Source: Actinopolyspora xinjiangensis
GTDB taxonomy: Bacteria > Actinomycetota > Actinomycetes > Mycobacteriales > Pseudonocardiaceae
Length of the DNA stretch: 64,000 bases
Assembly (NCBI RefSeq): GCF_900104475.1
Contig: NZ_FNJR01000004.1
Location: 124,001 to 188,000, forward strand
Reading direction: 5' to 3'
Shown one piece after another: positions 1,093 to 17,164 of this stretch (positions within the stretch are counted from its first letter, which is position 1; every line of letters starts with the position of its first letter). Both the position numbers and the translations under genes were made by a program. The notes under the pieces are model-generated. The model worked only from the letters and a program-made list of their open reading frames with translations. It did not search any database and had not been told where the DNA came from.

Positions 1093-2355
1093 ATGTACCC
1101 GTTACGACGACGAGCGGTGACGGCGTTGTCCCTCACCGCGTTGCTGTTCGTACTGCCGGTCACACAGTCGGCCACAGCCGACCAGGTGACTTCCGGTGAC
1201 GCCGAACCGGATTCGGCACGGGCCGTGTACCGCGTACCGAACACCGACTCCGCCTCGCGCACAGCGGTCAACCGCACCGGGGCCCTGGTGCTCTCGGTCG
1301 ACGAGGGCACGGCCTTCGTGTCGGCGACCCCGGAGCAGGCACGGCGGCTCCGCTCCAGGGGCATGGCCCCGCGCCGGGTAGCGGACGGACCGGCCCGGTT
1401 CCAGAACGCACCGGCACGCCCGGCCGAGTTCCCCCCGGAGGATGGCGACTACCACACCTACTCGGAAACCCTCGCCGAGATCGAGGAAGCGGCCACCGAC
1501 CACCCTGGAATCGTCGACAGCACCTCGGCGGGAAGCTCGGCGCTGGGCAGGGACATCCCGGTGGTCAAGATCAGTGACCGGGCGGACATCGACGAAGCGG
1601 AACCGGAAGTGCTGTTCACCTGCAACCAGCACGCCCGTGAACACCTCACGGCGGAGATGTGTCTGCACATCCTGCGGCGCTACACCGACGGATACGGTTC
1701 GGACCCGGAGATCACGGAGGACGTCGACAGCCGGGAGATCTGGGTCGTCCCCATGGTGAATCCGGACGGTGCGACATACGACGTGACGAGAACGGGATAC
1801 CGGGGCTGGCGCCGCAACCGGCAGGGCACTCCGGTGGACCTGAACCGCAACTGGGGTTACCAGTGGGGTTGCTGCGGGGGCTCCAGCGGGAACCCGAGCC
1901 AGCCGACCTACCGCGGCCCGGCGCCCTTCTCCGCACCCGAAACCTCCGCGGTGCGGGACTTCGTCGAATCACGCGTGGTGGGTGGAAGGCAGCGGATAAC
2001 CGCGCACATTGACTTCCACAGCTTCTCGGAGCTGGTGCTGTGGCCGTACGGCTACACCACGGCCGACACGGCGCCGGGCATGACGCGGGAGCAGTACCGG
2101 AGGTTCGCCGAACTGGGCAACGCGATGGCAGGAACCAACGGCTACACCCCGATGCAGTCCAGCGACCTCTACGTCACCGACGGAAGCGTGAACGACTGGA
2201 TGTGGGCCGAACACGGAATCTTGTCGTTCACCTTCGAGATGTATCCCGGCGGCGGCGGTTTCGACGGTTTCTACCCACCGGACGAGGTCATCCAGCGGGA
2301 GACCAGCCGCAACGACGAGGCGGTCGCCATGTTGCTGGACGAAGCGGGCAACTGA
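1093..2355 (+). CDS. Secreted zinc carboxypeptidase, M14 family
   Basis: This 420-residue protein is predicted to be exported and to remove C-terminal residues from peptides. Residues 1-30 form a signal peptide: arginines after MYPL, a hydrophobic core, then an ATA-type cleavage site. A propeptide-like region of about 100 residues follows. The catalytic domain shows the M14 zinc ligands H180 and E183 (HARE motif) and H309 (IDFHSF), with the general base E382 (FTFEMYP). Three adjacent cysteine/glycine-rich residues (GCCGG) lie mid-domain. I chose the ATG at 1093 over a GTG at 1030 because GGAGAGG precedes it and it gives a clean signal peptide. The peptide-type ABC importer nearby could take up its products, which is inference. 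Confidence 0.92.
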   Translation: MYPLRRRAVTALSLTALLFVLPVTQSATADQVTSGDAEPDSARAVYRVPNTDSASRTAVNRTGALVLSVDEGTAFVSATPEQARRLRSRGMAPRRVADGPARFQNAPARPAEFPPEDGDYHTYSETLAEIEEAATDHPGIVDSTSAGSSALGRDIPVVKISDRADIDEAEPEVLFTCNQHAREHLTAEMCLHILRRYTDGYGSDPEITEDVDSREIWVVPMVNPDGATYDVTRTGYRGWRRNRQGTPVDLNRNWGYQWGCCGGSSGNPSQPTYRGPAPFSAPETSAVRDFVESRVVGGRQRITAHIDFHSFSELVLWPYGYTTADTAPGMTREQYRRFAELGNAMAGTNGYTPMQSSDLYVTDGSVNDWMWAEHGILSFTFEMYPGGGGFDGFYPPDEVIQRETSRNDEAVAMLLDEAGN

Positions 2356-3293: not shown

Positions 3294-4264
3294 GGCGGAT
3301 GCGCCGCGACCGACCTGCTGCCGTACTCGACGAGCGCGGGGTCCCCGTTGCAGGGGGCCACGCCGGGCGTGTCCGGACAGCGCAGGCAGAACACACAGCC
3401 CCACTCCCGCTCCAGCTCGGCGAGCTCGGTGAGTGCGGGCGGGTGCCCCGGGACGGGCTGGAAGCCCGCCTCCGGCATGGCTTCCAGCAATCCTTTCGTG
3501 TAGGGGTGCCAGGGTCGGTGGAACACTTCCTCCGCCGGGCCGCTCTCCACCACCCGGCTGGCGTACATCACCGCCACGTGAGTGGCCACGCGCTTGGCGG
3601 CGGCCAAGTCATGGGTGATCAACAACACTCCTCTGTTCCGGTCGGCGAGTTCGCCGAGCAGATCCGTGACGCGGTCGACCAACGGCCGGTCCAGGCCGGT
3701 GGTCGGCTCGTCGGCGATGACCACGGAGGGATCGGCCACCAGTGCCGAGGCCACCGCGACACGTTGGGCCATACCGCCGGACAGCTCATGCGGGTAGTGC
3801 GCCAGGTCCGCCGGGGCGAGCCCGACGCGCCCGGCCAGTTCGTCCACCGAGCCGTGATCGACGCGACCGCGCAACTCGCGGAAGGTCTCGGCCAGTTGGT
3901 CGCGCGCGGTACGCACCGGGGTCAGGTGCGTCGCGGCCGACTGCGGCACCAGACCGATCCGCCTGCCCCGGACCCGGCGCGCGAGCACGTGTTCGGAGCT
4001 GGACAGCAGCTCGACCTCCTCGTCCGTGCCGGGATGCAGCCAGGCACGACCACGGATCCAGGCGTTCGAGGGCAACAACCCGAGCAGGGCCGAGGCCAGC
4101 ACGGACTTACCGCATCCGGACTCGCCCACCAGGGCCAGTACCTGCCCGGGGGACAGCCGAACCCTGGCGTCGGTGACGGCGTGCACCGGCCCGGAGCCCC
4201 GGCTCCGGCCGAGCTCGAAGCGCACCGACATGTCGTCCAGCCACAGCAGTGGTGGTTCCTGCAC
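3287..4264 (-). CDS. ABC transporter ATPase, DppD/OppD-like
   Basis: A 325-residue ATPase with Walker A at residues 47-54 (K53), signature LSGGMAQR and Walker B VVIADEPTTGLD. The C-terminus carries the oligopeptide/dipeptide-type extension with clustered cysteines (CVFCLRCPDTPG...PC). In some family members this tail binds an iron-sulfur cluster. The start is a GTG at 4264 with GGAGTGA upstream; an in-frame ATG further upstream is closed by a stop. Its end overlaps the next ATPase. A 155-bp gap separates it from the permease gene upstream, so transcription continues through a short tandem repeat. Confidence 0.92.
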   Translation of the reverse strand: MQEPPLLWLDDMSVRFELGRSRGSGPVHAVTDARVRLSPGQVLALVGESGCGKSVLASALLGLLPSNAWIRGRAWLHPGTDEEVELLSSSEHVLARRVRGRRIGLVPQSAATHLTPVRTARDQLAETFRELRGRVDHGSVDELAGRVGLAPADLAHYPHELSGGMAQRVAVASALVADPSVVIADEPTTGLDRPLVDRVTDLLGELADRNRGVLLITHDLAAAKRVATHVAVMYASRVVESGPAEEVFHRPWHPYTKGLLEAMPEAGFQPVPGHPPALTELAELEREWGCVFCLRCPDTPGVAPCNGDPALVEYGSRSVAAHPPC

Positions 4265-11925: not shown

Positions 11926-12813
11926 TCACATGTCCAGCCCGATGTCCAGCACCTCGGCGGAGTGGGTGAGCGCGCCGACGGCCAGATAGTGCACGCCGGT
12001 GGCGGCGTAGGTCGGTGCCACGTCGAGGGTGAGGCCCCCGGATGCCTCCAACGCGGTCCTGGGCGACCTCGCGGCGGCACGCCGAACCGCCTCGGCGCAG
12101 TCCCTCGGCGCGAAGTTGTCCAACAACACCAGGGCCGGGCTCTCCGACAGCACCTCGTCGAGCTCGGCGAGGTCGGACACCTCGACCTCCAGCTCCAGTT
12201 CGGGCGCGTGCTCCCGGCAGGATCGCAGGGCAGCGGTCACGGAGCCGGCCGCGGCCACGTGGTTGTCCTTGACCAGCATCGCGTCACCGAGGCCGAGTCG
12301 GTGGTTGCTCCCGCCACCGCAGCGCACCGCGTACTTCTGCGGCAGTCTGATGCCGGGGATGGTCTTGCGGCTGTCCCGGATCACGCAGCCCGAGCCGCGT
12401 ACCGCCGAGACCCAGGCGGCCGTCGACGTCGCGATCCCGGACAGGTGGCACAGCAGGTTCAACGCGGTCCGCTCAGCGGTGAGCAGCGCGCCCAGCGGGG
12501 CTCGCACTGCGAGTACGCACCCTCCCGCGGGGACCTCGTCACCGTCGGAGACAGCCGAGACCACCTGGTAACCGTCCGCTCCCACCACCTCGTCCAGCAC
12601 AGCCAGCACCAGCGGCAACCCGGCCACCACACCGGCTCGCCGTGCGTTGAACCCGGCGGTGGCCACCGCCTCGGCGGGTACGGTCGCCCTCGTGGTGGCG
12701 TCGGGCCCGTAACGCAGGTCCTCCGCCAACGCCGCTCGCACCAGGACCTCGCTCTCGGCGGGATCCAGCCCGGCGGTGCGCAGATTCCGGACGGTGTCCT
12801 CGGAGAGGTTCAA
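11926..12813 (-). CDS. nadC: Nicotinate-nucleotide pyrophosphorylase (quinolinate phosphoribosyltransferase)
   Basis: NadC converts quinolinate and PRPP to nicotinate mononucleotide, the third step of de novo NAD synthesis. The 295-residue protein has the family segments EDLRYGPDATT, NLLCHLSGIAT, RKTIPGIRLPQKYAV, NHRLGLGDAMLVKDNH and LDNF. The start appears to be a TTG at 12813 that overlaps the nadB stop as TTGA, with GAGGGAAG upstream, so nadC is translationally coupled to nadB. Last gene of the nadABC operon. Confidence 0.95.
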   Translation of the reverse strand: MNLSEDTVRNLRTAGLDPAESEVLVRAALAEDLRYGPDATTRATVPAEAVATAGFNARRAGVVAGLPLVLAVLDEVVGADGYQVVSAVSDGDEVPAGGCVLAVRAPLGALLTAERTALNLLCHLSGIATSTAAWVSAVRGSGCVIRDSRKTIPGIRLPQKYAVRCGGGSNHRLGLGDAMLVKDNHVAAAGSVTAALRSCREHAPELELEVEVSDLAELDEVLSESPALVLLDNFAPRDCAEAVRRAAARSPRTALEASGGLTLDVAPTYAATGVHYLAVGALTHSAEVLDIGLDM

Positions 12814-14414
12814 GCCACTTCCCTCGTTTCCTCCGGGGTGGATCGGATCAACCAGCCGGAGACGTCCAGCCGCAACGGGTTGGGCCGCCTCCACCGCAGG
12901 TCGTCAGTGGCGGGGTGGTCATAGCGCCGGTGGCAACCGCGCGACTCGGTCCGGTCCGATGCGGCGGCGAGCAGCGCGTGGGCCGTGAGTCCCAGCGCCG
13001 CGTCCTCCACGGCCTCGCGAGTCCGCAGCGGACGGACCACCGCAGCGGTGTCCAGTCCGGAGCGGGCCTCTCGCAGCCCGTCGGCGTGACGTCCGATACC
13101 GGCGTGCCTGCTCATGAGCTGTCGCAGCCAGGCGCGGTCGACCACGGCCGCCGCGGGCAGCCGTTCGGAGGTCACCGGTCCCCGGCGCAGCGCGCCGACA
13201 CGGAGGTCGCGCAGCACGGCCTCGGCGGAGCGGCTGCCGAGGACCAGACCTTCCAGCAGGCTGTTGGAGGCGAGCCTGTTGGCCCCGTGCAATCCGGTCC
13301 GTGCGACCTCGCCCGCGGCGTAGAGGCCGGTGACGCCGGTCCTGCCGTCGACGTCGCACATGATCCCGCCACAGGAGTAGTGTGCGGCGGTGGTGACCGG
13401 GATGGGGTCGACCAGCGGGTCGATCCCGGCGTCCCGGCAGGCCGCGTACACGGTCGGGAAGCGTTCGACGAAGCTCTTGCCCAAGCCGGTGGCGTCCAGG
13501 CGGACCGAGTCGGAACCGGTCTCGACGAGCCTCTCGTTGATCGCCGCCGCGACGACGTCCCGTGGAGCCAGGTCCCCCATCGGATGCCTGCCCGCCATCA
13601 CCGGCTCGCCGTGGACGTCGAGCAGCACCGCTCCCTCACCCCGGACGGCTTCGGTGATCAGCGGTCGGCTACCCCGCTCGGTCGAGGAGGTGTGCAACAC
13701 GGTCGGGTGGAACTGGACGAACTCCAGATCGGCCACGGCGGCCCCGGCACGCAGTCCGAGCGCGATGCCGTCGCCGGTCGCGACCGCGGGGTTCGTGGTG
13801 GCCCGGTAGAGCTGACCCAGCCCACCCGTGGCCAACAGGACGGCGGGTGACTGCACGAGACCGGGCCTGCCCGCGTGGTCGAGCACGAGCGCGCCTCCCA
13901 CCGCCCCCCACTCGGTGTGCGAGAGCTCGACCACGCAGTGGTTCTCCAGTACCGGGACACCCTCGGTCGTGGTTGCCTCCACCAGTGCGCGCTGCACCTC
14001 CGCGCCGGTCGCGTCACCCCCCGCGTGAATCACCCGGAAGGCGCTGTGACCGCCCTCGCGAGTGCGCGACAGGGTGCCGGCGGGGGAACCGTCGAACCGC
14101 GCTCCCGCCGCGCGCAACCGGCTCACGGCCGCCGCGCCGTCCCCGAGGATCGTGTTCACCGCGGCGGTGGAACACAGCCCGGCACCGGCTTCGAGCGTGT
14201 CCCGCACGTGCCGCCGCACGCTGTCGGAGGAATCGCGCTCCTCCTCGCGTACGACGGCGATACCGCCCTGCGCCCACTCGGTGTTGCCGACGGTGACGCT
14301 CTCCTTGCTTACCACCAGCACCCGCAGACCGAGCTCACGGGCGCGCAGCGCGGCGGTGAGCCCGGCCACGCCGGTCCCCACGACCAGCAGATCCGCACCG
14401 GCGTGCCAGGTCAT
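12810..14414 (-). CDS. nadB: L-aspartate oxidase
   Basis: NadB oxidises L-aspartate to iminoaspartate with FAD, feeding NadA. The 534-residue protein starts with the FAD-binding motif [13 protein letters not shown] near residues 9-21. It carries the HPTVLH segment, the [28 protein letters not shown] block and the [15 protein letters not shown] block of the succinate dehydrogenase/fumarate reductase superfamily. The ATG at 14414 overlaps the nadA stop as ATGA. A much longer upstream frame exists but is the shadow of nadA. Confidence 0.96.
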
Positions 14415-15487
14415 TCGCCACCACCGGGCTGGCCGATGCTGATCATCCGCTCCACGGCCGAGCGAGCCCGTCGAGCCGTTTCGGGCGCGACGCGCACCTC
14501 GTCGGCGTTGTCGGTCAGGCAGCGCAGCAGTGCGGCCGGTGTGATCATCTTCATGTACTTGCAGGAGGCACGGTCGTTGACCGCTCTGAAGTCCACCTCG
14601 GGAGCGGCCGAGCGCAACTGGTGCAGCATTCCGACCTCGGTGGCCACCAGCACCGAGGAGGCGCCGGTCCGGTGCGCCGCGTCGAGCATCCCACCGGTGG
14701 ACAGGATCTTGACCCGATCGGAGTCCACCGTTCCGTCCCCGGCCAGGTACAGCGCCGAGGTGGCACAGCCGCACTCCGGGTGGATGAACAGCTCCGCGTC
14801 CGGGTCGGCACCCGCGCGTTCGGCGAGTTCGGCTCCGTTGATGCCCGCGTGGACGTGGCACTCGCCCGCCCAGACGTGGAGATTCTCCCTGCCGGTCTCC
14901 CGCTTGACGTGCGCGCCGAGGAACTGGTCCGGGCAGAAGAGCACGGGACGGTCCTCGGGAATCGAGCGCACGACCTCGACCGCGTTCGAGGACGTGCAGC
15001 AGACATCGGTCTCGGCCTTGACCTCGGCCGTGGTGTTGACGTACGAGACGACCACCGGCTCGGGCTCACCGGCGCGCACGAAGTCCGCCTTCCAGGCGCG
15101 GAGGTCCTCGGCGGTGATCGAATCGGCCAGTGAGCAGCCGGCCCGCTCGTCCGGGATCAGCACCGTCTTGTCCGGGCTGAGGATCTTGGCGGTCTCCGCC
15201 ATGAAGTGCACACCGCAGAACACGATCGTGCTCGCGGTGCTCTCGGCGGCGATGCGGCTCAGCGCCAACGAGTCACCGGTGTGATCGGCGACGTCCTGGA
15301 TCTCGGGAAGCTGGTAGTTGTGCGCGAGCAACACGGCGTCCCGCCGCTCGGCCAATCGGCGGATCTCGGCCGCCCACGCCGCGTCGCCGGGAATCCCCGT
15401 GTAGCCGTCTTCGGTGCGCCGCAGGGCTGCGGTGTCGAGTCCGGCCGGGTTGCCGTCGCCACCGACAGTGGCTGCTGTAGCGGCCAT
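14411..15487 (-). CDS. nadA: Quinolinate synthase
   Basis: NadA condenses iminoaspartate with dihydroxyacetone phosphate to quinolinate and needs a [4Fe-4S] cluster. The 358-residue protein contains [50 protein letters not shown] and SCKYMKMIT. By analogy with the family, C91, C210 and C309 are the likely cluster ligands. The ATG at 15487 follows a strong GGAGGA site. It is the first gene of the coupled nadABC operon and diverges from the Nudix-type regulator gene; the 123-bp gap holds a candidate operator. Confidence 0.97.
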
Positions 15488-15587
15488 GTCCTCCTCCTCA
15501 CCGGCGCGGGTGGCGAGCCCACCACGCCGATCTCCCCGCAGGGCCCGGTGATCACCGGGTTGTCGAACTCCTGATTTCGCAACCAGG

Positions 15588-15610
15588 GTTTTCGTCTTAG
15601 GATCGAAAAC
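15588..15610. promoter_or_regulatory. Candidate NrtR/NdnR operator with an embedded -10 box
   Basis: A perfect 7-bp inverted repeat GTTTTCG-N9-CGAAAAC directly abuts the GTG start of the Nudix-type regulator gene. The 9-base spacer contains TAGGAT at 15598-15603, which is a good -10 box lying 7 bases before the start, so the regulator transcript is probably leaderless. A repressor on this site would block its own promoter and could also act on the divergent nadA promoter. NrtR/NdnR regulators are known to repress NAD synthesis genes; the assignment to this palindrome is inference. Confidence 0.6.
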
Positions 15611-16327
15611 GTGTCCAATACTAACACGCCGCCGGAGCACCGGGAGCGCGATACGAGCCACACCACGGGCCACGAGGTACTCGCGGGGGTCGTGCAGGTG
15701 CGACGGGGGGCGTTGAAGGCGCTGTTGTGGCAGCGAGCCAGACCTCCCCACCCGAACCGCTGGGCACTCCCGGGCGGCAGGCTCCACTCCGACGAAACGG
15801 TGGAATCCTCCATACGCAGACAACTCGCCGAAAAGGTCGACGTGCGCGAGCTCACACACGTGGAACAGCTCGCGGTGTTCAGCGACCCCGAGAGAGTGCC
15901 GGGCAACCGCGTAGTGGCCACCGCTTTCCTCGGCCTCGTCCCCTGCGACACCGATCCGGAGCTGCCGGGCGACACCGCCTGGCACCCGATCGAAGCACTG
16001 CCGGAGACGGCGTTCGACCACGAGACGATCCTGCTGACCGCCCGAGAACGTCTCCGGTCCAAGCTGTCCTACACCAACATCGGCTTCGCCCTGGCTCCGC
16101 CGAAGTTCACCGTCTCCGAACTACGCGACATCTACTCGGCCGCCCTGGGGTACCGGGTCTCGGCCACGAACCTGCAGCGGGTTCTCTCCCGGCGCGGCGC
16201 GCTGGAGGCGACCGGGGAGACCGTGGCGGCAGGCCCGTCGGGAGGCCGCCCACCGGCGCTGTTCCGGTTCACCTCGCGTGATCTGCAGATCACGGACCGG
16301 TTCGCGGTACTGCGGCCACCCGGGTGA
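15611..16327 (+). CDS. nrtR: Nudix-related transcriptional regulator of NAD synthesis (NrtR/NdnR type)
   Basis: A 238-residue protein with an N-terminal Nudix-like domain (about 20-145) and a C-terminal winged-helix domain (about 155-235, [38 protein letters not shown]). The Nudix box around residues 56-78 is degenerate: the expected REUXEEXGU reads RQLAEKVDV, so key glutamates are replaced and hydrolase activity is unlikely. That is the hallmark of NrtR regulators, which sense ADP-ribose or another NAD-related ligand. Divergence from nadABC fits the NdnR role known in corynebacteria. Start GTG at 15611, probably leaderless. Confidence 0.87.
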
Positions 16328-16483: not shown

Positions 16484-17164
16484 GTGACTGAAACGCTACC
16501 GCTGTTTCCGCTGGGTACCGTACTCCTGCCCGGCGCCTCGCTCCCGCTGCGCATCTTCGAGGCACGCTACCGGCAGCTCGTGCTGGATCTGGTCAACGAA
16601 GTGGTCCCCGGCCGACGGTTCGGCGTGGTCGGAATCCGGCAGGGCTGGGAGGTCGGCGAGGACAACGTCGACGCCATGTACGAGATCGGGTGCTCCGCCC
16701 GGCTGGGCGAGGTGCAGCAGCTCCCGGAGGGACGTTACGACACCACAAGTACCGGACAGCACCGTTTCCGGCTGTTGCAACTGGACACCGAGGCGGCTCC
16801 CTACCTGATGGCCCGCGTGGAATGGCTGCCGGACAGCACTCCCCAGCAGGACTCCGACCAGCTACGGGAGAGGCTGGCGACCTCGGCCCGCGCCGCGCAC
16901 GAGCGCTACCTGGCGACCGGGCTCCAGGTGGAGGGCACCACCACCCCGGACGATGACACCGGCTTCGCCGAGCTCCCCTATTCCCTGGCCGAGAACTGCG
17001 TGCTCACCCCGGAGGACCGACAGCACCTGCTCGCCGAGACCGACCCGGTGGCGCGGATGCGCACGATCCGTTCGCTGCTCAATCGGGAGACCGAGCTCGT
17101 GCGCAGACTTCGCGCGGTACCCGCCCAACTGTCCGAATTCGCCGAACACGCGGGAACGAACTGA
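16484..17164 (+). CDS. Lon protease substrate-binding (LON-N) domain protein
   Basis: A 226-residue protein made of the N-terminal substrate-binding domain found in Lon proteases, without ATPase or protease parts. It opens with TETLPLFPLGTVLLPGASLPLRIFEARYRQLV, the characteristic start of this family, followed by a beta-barrel part and a helical C-terminus. Function of stand-alone members is not settled. TAGGTT at 16472-16477 lies 6 bases before the GTG start, and no ribosome site is visible, so the mRNA is probably leaderless. Confidence 0.88.
   Translation: MTETLPLFPLGTVLLPGASLPLRIFEARYRQLVLDLVNEVVPGRRFGVVGIRQGWEVGEDNVDAMYEIGCSARLGEVQQLPEGRYDTTSTGQHRFRLLQLDTEAAPYLMARVEWLPDSTPQQDSDQLRERLATSARAAHERYLATGLQVEGTTTPDDDTGFAELPYSLAENCVLTPEDRQHLLAETDPVARMRTIRSLLNRETELVRRLRAVPAQLSEFAEHAGTN

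Follow-up and report, generated by a model that had tools for sequence, protein, structure and literature searches.

The question raised by this locus is how a single palindrome, set against the start of a regulator gene, could govern both that gene and the nadABC genes that diverge from it across a gap of 123 bp. Our comparison suggests an operator packed between opposing promoters, one of them hidden in the first codons of the repressor gene. The window (the whole stretch of DNA analysed, 64,000 nucleotides from Actinopolyspora xinjiangensis) carries profile matches to nadA, nadB and nadC on the minus strand, with the nadA start at 15487, so that the divergence from the regulator stated in the initial annotation holds. 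The genes concerned are:

11926-12894, minus strand: ORF containing nadC, quinolinate phosphoribosyltransferase (TIGR00078, 1.4e-83)
12810-14861, minus strand: ORF containing nadB, L-aspartate oxidase, match from residue 149 (NF005867, 1.8e-200; TIGR00551, 3.1e-154)
14411-15487, minus strand: nadA, quinolinate synthase, 358 aa (NCBIfam NF006878, 1.7e-107; TIGR00550, 2e-86; Pfam NadA, 2.7e-107)
15611-16327, plus strand: nrtR, 238 aa, GTG start, predicted leaderless with an mRNA start near 15611 (Pfam NUDIX, 1.6e-12; NrtR_WHD, 3.6e-10; PDB relatives 5bs6 and 3gz5)

Downstream of nrtR, at 16484-17164 on the plus strand, lies a gene for a free-standing LON substrate-binding domain protein (Pfam, 8e-36).

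The regulator has the architecture of the NrtR family, in agreement with the type first assigned to it: an N-terminal Nudix domain (PF00293, 48.1 bits against a cut-off of 21.1; residues 24-135) is followed by the NrtR winged helix (PF21906, NrtR_WHD, 40.3 bits against a cut-off of 27). With the NCBIfam equivalog model NF050029 (ADPR responsive repressor) it scored 87.3 bits against a cut-off of 400; this model probably describes a narrower group, and for that reason only its equivalog label was withheld. The relatives found by sequence in the structure database are AraR (5bs6, 5e-24) and a Nudix family protein (3gz5, 6e-17), the latter being the NrtR of Shewanella. The Nudix box had been described as having lost its catalytic glutamates, which is true of two of the three: REUXEE, whose glutamates we take to be the metal-binding ones of Nudix enzymes, reads RQLAEK, with Q71 and K75 in place of glutamates and E74 retained. 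The pattern is clade-wide, with Q, K and E in 89, 91 and 88 of 92 orthologues, respectively.

DNA binding by MsNrtR, the Mycobacterium smegmatis regulator, is reported to need D167, T169, N170, R173, K179 and R196 (PMC6800001). When the residue numbering was transferred via the M. peregrinum protein, T169, N170, R173 and R196 were found to be kept as T186, N187, R190 and R213, while D167 and K179 are S184 and G196 here, at two positions that vary among the 92 orthologues. The acetylated lysine K134 of MsNrtR would be K151 here if the M. smegmatis and M. peregrinum proteins are equally long. Since the published MsNrtR numbering agrees with a start that lies 9 codons further in than the leaderless one of the Mycolicibacterium peregrinum locus (L151), the nrtR start in use for M. 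smegmatis may be too far downstream, again assuming that the two proteins do not differ in length. A second NrtR-family protein of the A. xinjiangensis genome (L121:2845-3678, G000:C32) is 35% identical to that of the window and matches NrtR_WHD at 1.2e-15; its gene adjoins a transporter-like ORF, read by eye, at 1376-2659.

The palindrome itself is an exact 7-9-7 inverted repeat of 23 bp, GTTTTCG-TCTTAGGAT-CGAAAAC, at 15588-15610. As had been noticed initially, it ends at the base before the GTG of the 238-aa ORF (15611-16327), and the proposed -10 box TAGGAT is indeed in its spacer, of which it forms the final six bases (15598-15603). Among 4000 first-order random copies of the 123-bp gap, a perfect 7-9-7 repeat arose in 1.2%, and any 7-bp arm with a spacer of 3-15 in 11%; the palindrome alone is moderately unlikely by chance, and it is conservation across orthologs that decides. 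Gao et al. 2019 (PMC6800001) describe a 23-bp palindrome, GTTTTCGA-N7-TCGAAAAC, between nrtR and nadABC of Mycobacterium. Because the same motif is thus published for the same gap, the palindrome of the window is very probably an NrtR operator, although its arm lacks the eighth base pair of the MsNrtR operator (T, not A, at position 8). The elements recognised around it are:

15588-15610, no strand: very probable NrtR operator, 23-bp palindrome GTTTTCG-N9-CGAAAAC (exact match, conservation, published Mycobacterium motif)
15598-15603, plus strand: predicted nrtR -10, TAGGAT, in the operator spacer (87/117 sites combine TANNNT with a start at +0/+1)
15604-15610, plus strand: right half-site CGAAAAC, which doubles as the nrtR -10 to +1 stretch (sequence, ortholog sites)
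15618-15623, minus strand: predicted nadA -10, TAGTAT (117/117 sites against 1/117 in the mirror control; wobble test)
15624-15626, minus strand: TGT, extended part of the nadA -10 (TGN in 115/117)
15488-15610, minus strand: predicted nadA 5' leader, 123 nt, with the operator as its first 23 nt (from the -10; fold z -3.1; genus-level alignment)

The regulator was matched in all 150 genomes of the family (weakly in G011 and G061) and in 107 of 121 genomes of the order, leaving 14 without a match; the weaker matches in the order (~45% identity or below) are probably paralogues. We analysed 123 upstream regions, from 90 of the 150 family genomes and from 33 genomes of other families, which were picked by score and by hand and are not a random sample. 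The exact palindrome is present in 115 of them and a palindrome with at most one mismatch in 117; six regions (L110, L111, L112, L118, L128 and L139) have none at that level and are left out of all promoter counts. nadA diverges at each of the 117 palindrome loci, which gives the layout of the M. smegmatis-type system, a divergent nrtR/nadA pair with a GTTTTCG(A)-N-(T)CGAAAAC palindrome between the two genes. The initial annotation had made its proposal depend on conservation of the palindrome before orthologous nrtR-nadA pairs, and with 117 of 123 regions the proposal stands. The base adjoining the palindrome on the left (15587) is G in 85% of the 117 loci (1.3 bits), and the right side has no matching C; as this G is conserved without a partner, one further base may belong to the operator or to the region in which the nadA transcript starts.

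A wider regulon was considered and rejected. The exact palindrome is unique in the 5.04-Mb genome of A. xinjiangensis, where no other site with one mismatch was found, and when exact sites were sought in 246 genomes of the class, 25 of the 26 positive genomes had a single one. A local switch is therefore likelier.

On the regulator side, 87 of the 117 sites combine a TANNNT at the end of the spacer with an in-frame start 0-1 nt past the palindrome, eight have a start at +0/+1 without a strict TANNNT, 22 have neither element, and a spacer TANNNT without a start at +0/+1 is found in none (Fisher 2e-17 over the 117 sites, kinship ignored). With one genome per genus, the counts for both elements, start only, neither and -10 only are 32, 0, 11 and 0 of 43 (2e-10). 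The -10 is thus never seen without the start, which bears out the earlier claim that the palindrome overlaps a leaderless promoter of the regulator. That nrtR is leaderless and starts at the GTG is well supported by this comparison; in M. smegmatis, 24% of transcripts are leaderless (PMC6448022). In three of the loci with a start and no strict TANNNT (L061, L069 and L102), a forward TAGTAT accompanies an alternative start at +21/22. We call the 95 loci with a start codon at +0/+1 canonical and the other 22 non-canonical. In 19 of the 22, another forward TANNNT stands 6-8 nt before an in-frame start, and in 13 of those 19 it is at offset 8-13 and overlaps the nadA -10, as in GATAGTATC; L046, L049 and L060 contain no leaderless candidate. 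The candidate -10 elements that lie at least 30 nt downstream in L091, L099, L109, L115, L132 and L138 may be due to chance.

On the other strand, the window has TGT-TAGTAT at 15626-15618, within nrtR codons 3-5. When reverse-strand TANNNT was searched at gaps of 5-11 nt, it was found 6-11 nt past the right arm in 117/117 sites, at a gap of 7 in 86 of them and in the form TGN-TANNNT in 115. The mirror control, to the left of the palindrome at matching gaps, gave a TANNNT in 1/117, and the background frequency of ANNNTA was 3 in 8892 positions (offsets 14-89). All 95 canonical loci, which had not been preselected for the element, have T as the last base of nrtR codon 4, against 257 of 3135 (8%) in codons 8-40, and codon 4 encodes 11 different amino acids in these loci. 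Since the codon ends in T whatever its amino acid, the constraint acts on the DNA. We infer that TGT-TAGTAT is the core promoter of nadA, with a start near 15610 that would adjoin the nrtR start at 15611. In the window each -10 is 7 nt from the junction 15610/15611, and the two elements lie 14 bp apart without overlap. A purine at +1 and C at -1 are preferred at M. smegmatis starts (PMC6448022), and the predicted C at -1 and G at +1 match these preferences at both starts.

The predicted nadA leader of the window folds unusually well (z -3.1). Its predicted length is 116-124 nt in the window and in five loci of the same genus (L012-L016), and the hairpins are kept within the genus. A riboswitch was considered here. 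A two-sided change is seen in 1 of 42 leader pairs of the six same-genus sequences, the distance from the right end of the palindrome to the nadA start (placed by a Shine-Dalgarno rule) ranges from 29 to 254 nt in 107 loci, and an Rfam search of the leader gave no match except one miRNA match far under the cut-off. Given the little covariation and the variable leader length, no riboswitch is claimed.

Six genomes of the class outside the order carry the exact palindrome. Four of these loci (L261, L262, L263 and L265) have adjoining nadA and nrtR genes and a reverse TANNNT at a gap of 7-10, while L264 and L266 have no nadA or nrtR within ~2 kb and no reverse TANNNT. A second set comprised 120 named loci, among the matches listed, chosen for a palindrome followed by RTG, which favours the canonical type; it partly overlaps the genomes of the first set and includes Mycobacterium, Nocardia, Rhodococcus, Saccharopolyspora and Kutzneria. 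Among these listed matches, 96 sites are linked to nrtR, 88 of them with a spacer -10 and 93 with a reverse -10 (at gap 7 in 89), the linked loci L165, L167 and L257 having no reverse -10 at gaps 5-11; the other 28 sites are unlinked, and 10 have a reverse TANNNT. The first 80 loci among the matches listed account for 19 unlinked sites, of which L147, L158, L165 and L174 look like nrtR anyway and the remaining 15 include two with a reverse TANNNT, one site read both ways (L175); the other 40 of the listed matches gave 10 unlinked sites, five with a reverse TANNNT. Part of the unlinked sites are nrtR loci overlooked by the link rule. In L165 (Mycobacterium sp. ST-F2), exact palindromes at 2723-2748 and 3996-4021 lie on the same strand, ~1.3 kb apart, with start codons after each, an arrangement that looks like a duplication of nrtR, with a stop in the first 30 codons of one copy. 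In L195 (Pantoea sp. Mb-10), three tandem copies 178 bp apart (1520-1901, minus strand) match the palindrome; there is no nrtR match at that locus and the matches are probably due to chance.

One genome, G222, separates the two genes. Its nrtR lies ~1.8 kb from nadA, and the operator, with a reverse TACGAT at gap 7, remains beside nadA (L267, G222:C24:164000-168900, palindrome at 1641-1663); the stretch upstream of its nrtR holds no site better than 4 mismatches. As operator and reverse -10 have stayed with nadA while nrtR is ~1.8 kb off, autorepression through the operator has probably been lost in G222. Neither gene was matched within ~2 kb of a second exact palindrome in this genome (L268). 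Taken together, these comparisons lead us to conclude that the operator would belong first of all to nadA.

The joint best explanation of these observations is, in our view, one NrtR operator placed between and across two back-to-back promoters, those of nrtR and nadABC, to which we give a probability of roughly 80%. The nrtR -10 would lie in the operator spacer, and its transcript would begin, without a leader, at the GTG after the palindrome. nadABC would be transcribed on the opposite strand from the extended -10 TGT-TAGTAT in nrtR codons 3-5, and the first transcribed base would be the outermost of the right half-site or its neighbour, which would put the operator at roughly +1 to +23 of nadA. 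A dimer of NrtR bound there would cover the nrtR -10 and start together with the first 23 transcribed bases of nadA and, because the operator spans both promoters, would shut out polymerase at both at once. A ligand would free NrtR from the operator, ADP-ribose in M. smegmatis, and once the repressor is gone the two promoters should be mutually exclusive, with just 14 bp between their -10 elements. For A. xinjiangensis, what the comparison shows is the sequence elements and how well they are conserved; binding and repression are carried over from the M. smegmatis orthologue, and where the transcripts start, which element serves as the nadA promoter, what the ligand is and whether the promoters exclude each other are predictions.

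The operator might instead act on nrtR only, with nadA transcribed from a promoter of its own nearer the ATG and touched indirectly. The 123-bp gap has room for such a promoter, and purine-rich GGAGGAGGA stands just upstream of the nadA start as in a normal leadered gene, but the proposal is unlikely, given that the operator of G222 stays with nadA and not with nrtR, that the reverse -10 is found to the right of the palindrome in 117/117 sites against 1/117 on the left, and that the distance from palindrome to nadA start varies so widely (29 to 254 nt, 107 loci). In addition, none of the 59 bases to the left of the palindrome, beyond the adjoining G, exceeds 0.6 bit, and nadABC rises 2-6 fold in M. 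smegmatis without NrtR (PMC6800001). That the reverse TANNNT is kept for the protein needs of nrtR codons 3-5 is hardly credible: in the 95 canonical loci the elements do form part of the nrtR reading frame, but this is contradicted by a codon 4 that ends in T in 95/95 while encoding 11 amino acids, by the persistence of the element in 22/22 loci without a +0/+1 start (where an upstream start would keep the frame in some) and by its presence in G222 away from nrtR.

It has also to be considered that nrtR is leadered and starts at an internal GTG, the one at 15611 being incidental. In-frame GTGs exist at +81 and +87, and the residue numbering of MsNrtR would suit a start that is 9 codons downstream of the one predicted for M. 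peregrinum. We hold an internal start to be improbable: +81 (residue 28) falls within the Nudix match (residues 24-135), start codon and -10 shift together across genomes, and leaderless transcripts make up 24% of those of M. smegmatis (PMC6448022).

Comparison with known systems sets off what is particular to this one. Symmetric bidirectional promoters of bacteria, reportedly described by Warman and colleagues in 2021, are alike in that opposite -10 elements stand close together, and in 13 of the 22 non-canonical loci a forward -10 even overlaps that of nadA, whereas the -10 elements of the window type are 14 bp apart and do not overlap, and the predicted starts adjoin. NdnR of Corynebacterium glutamicum is by description likewise an NrtR-family repressor of de novo NAD synthesis genes; going by the title of Teramoto et al. 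2012, its gene reportedly belongs to an ndnR operon. According to a citation in PMC6800001, NAD improves the DNA binding of NdnR, in contrast to MsNrtR, which ADP-ribose releases. NrtR of Shewanella oneidensis (3gz5/3gz6) and AraR of Bacteroides (5bs6), which governs arabinose use (PMC4666351), are by sequence match also regulators with a Nudix domain and a winged helix.

The closest likeness is to the MsNrtR system as given in PMC6800001, with the same 23-bp motif, the same divergent genes and an orthologous regulator whose Nudix box is also degenerate. MsNrtR (MSMEG_3198) binds by gel shift with a KD of about 1.5 uM, has no detectable hydrolase or ADP-ribose pyrophosphatase activity and is freed from DNA by ADP-ribose at a dose printed as 50 mM, which we judge to be far above cell levels. 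In M. smegmatis, nrtR autorepression amounts to 8-10 fold and nadABC is up 2-6 fold in the mutant (PMC6800001). The autorepression and control of divergent nadABC first predicted for the window fit these data, which were obtained for the same motif in M. smegmatis and not here; that the autorepression should be tight finds no support in a KD of about 1.5 uM. The operator is therefore already published, which the initial annotation had missed, as it had the probable site of the nadA promoter, and what is new is the predicted interlocked anatomy of the promoters, drawn from comparison. The words 'leaderless' and 'transcription start' do not occur in the main text of PMC6800001, so that the start sites and the nadA -10 are seemingly undescribed there. 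No account of the interlocked promoters was met in the literature searched; parts of one may be given in Rodionov 2008, Teramoto 2012 and Warman 2021.

The comparison also bears on how this anatomy could have arisen. A symmetric spacer would pair C9 of the palindrome with a G at position 15. This G is present in 16 of the 30 sites that lack the spacer -10 and in 2 of the 87 that have it (kinship ignored), from which hosting the nrtR -10 seems to cost the operator symmetry. Four outgroup loci have a forward TANNNT at offset 11-14 with the nrtR start 6-8 nt later, and as all four show it, an nrtR -10 placed outside the operator may represent the earlier arrangement; the direction of the shift is inferred from these four loci. 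We think it fairly likely that across the actinomycetes one NrtR dimer controls two exclusive, near start-to-start promoters, that the nadA promoter constrains the wobbles of nrtR codons 3-5, and that the nrtR start and -10 moved together by ~20-26 bp, from overlap with the nadA -10 into the operator, at the expense of its symmetry. In loci that keep both starts in frame, the shift amounts to seven codons.

Such an anatomy would explain how one site silences both the regulator and its target, and it places the two predicted transcript starts with an uncertainty of one or two bases. It would also be a case in which part of a regulator's coding sequence is constrained by the promoter of a neighbour. 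Tagging nrtR near its start, or altering a codon there synonymously, would then likely harm nadA expression, and the reading of nrtR mutants and fusions would be affected by such likely damage to nadA.
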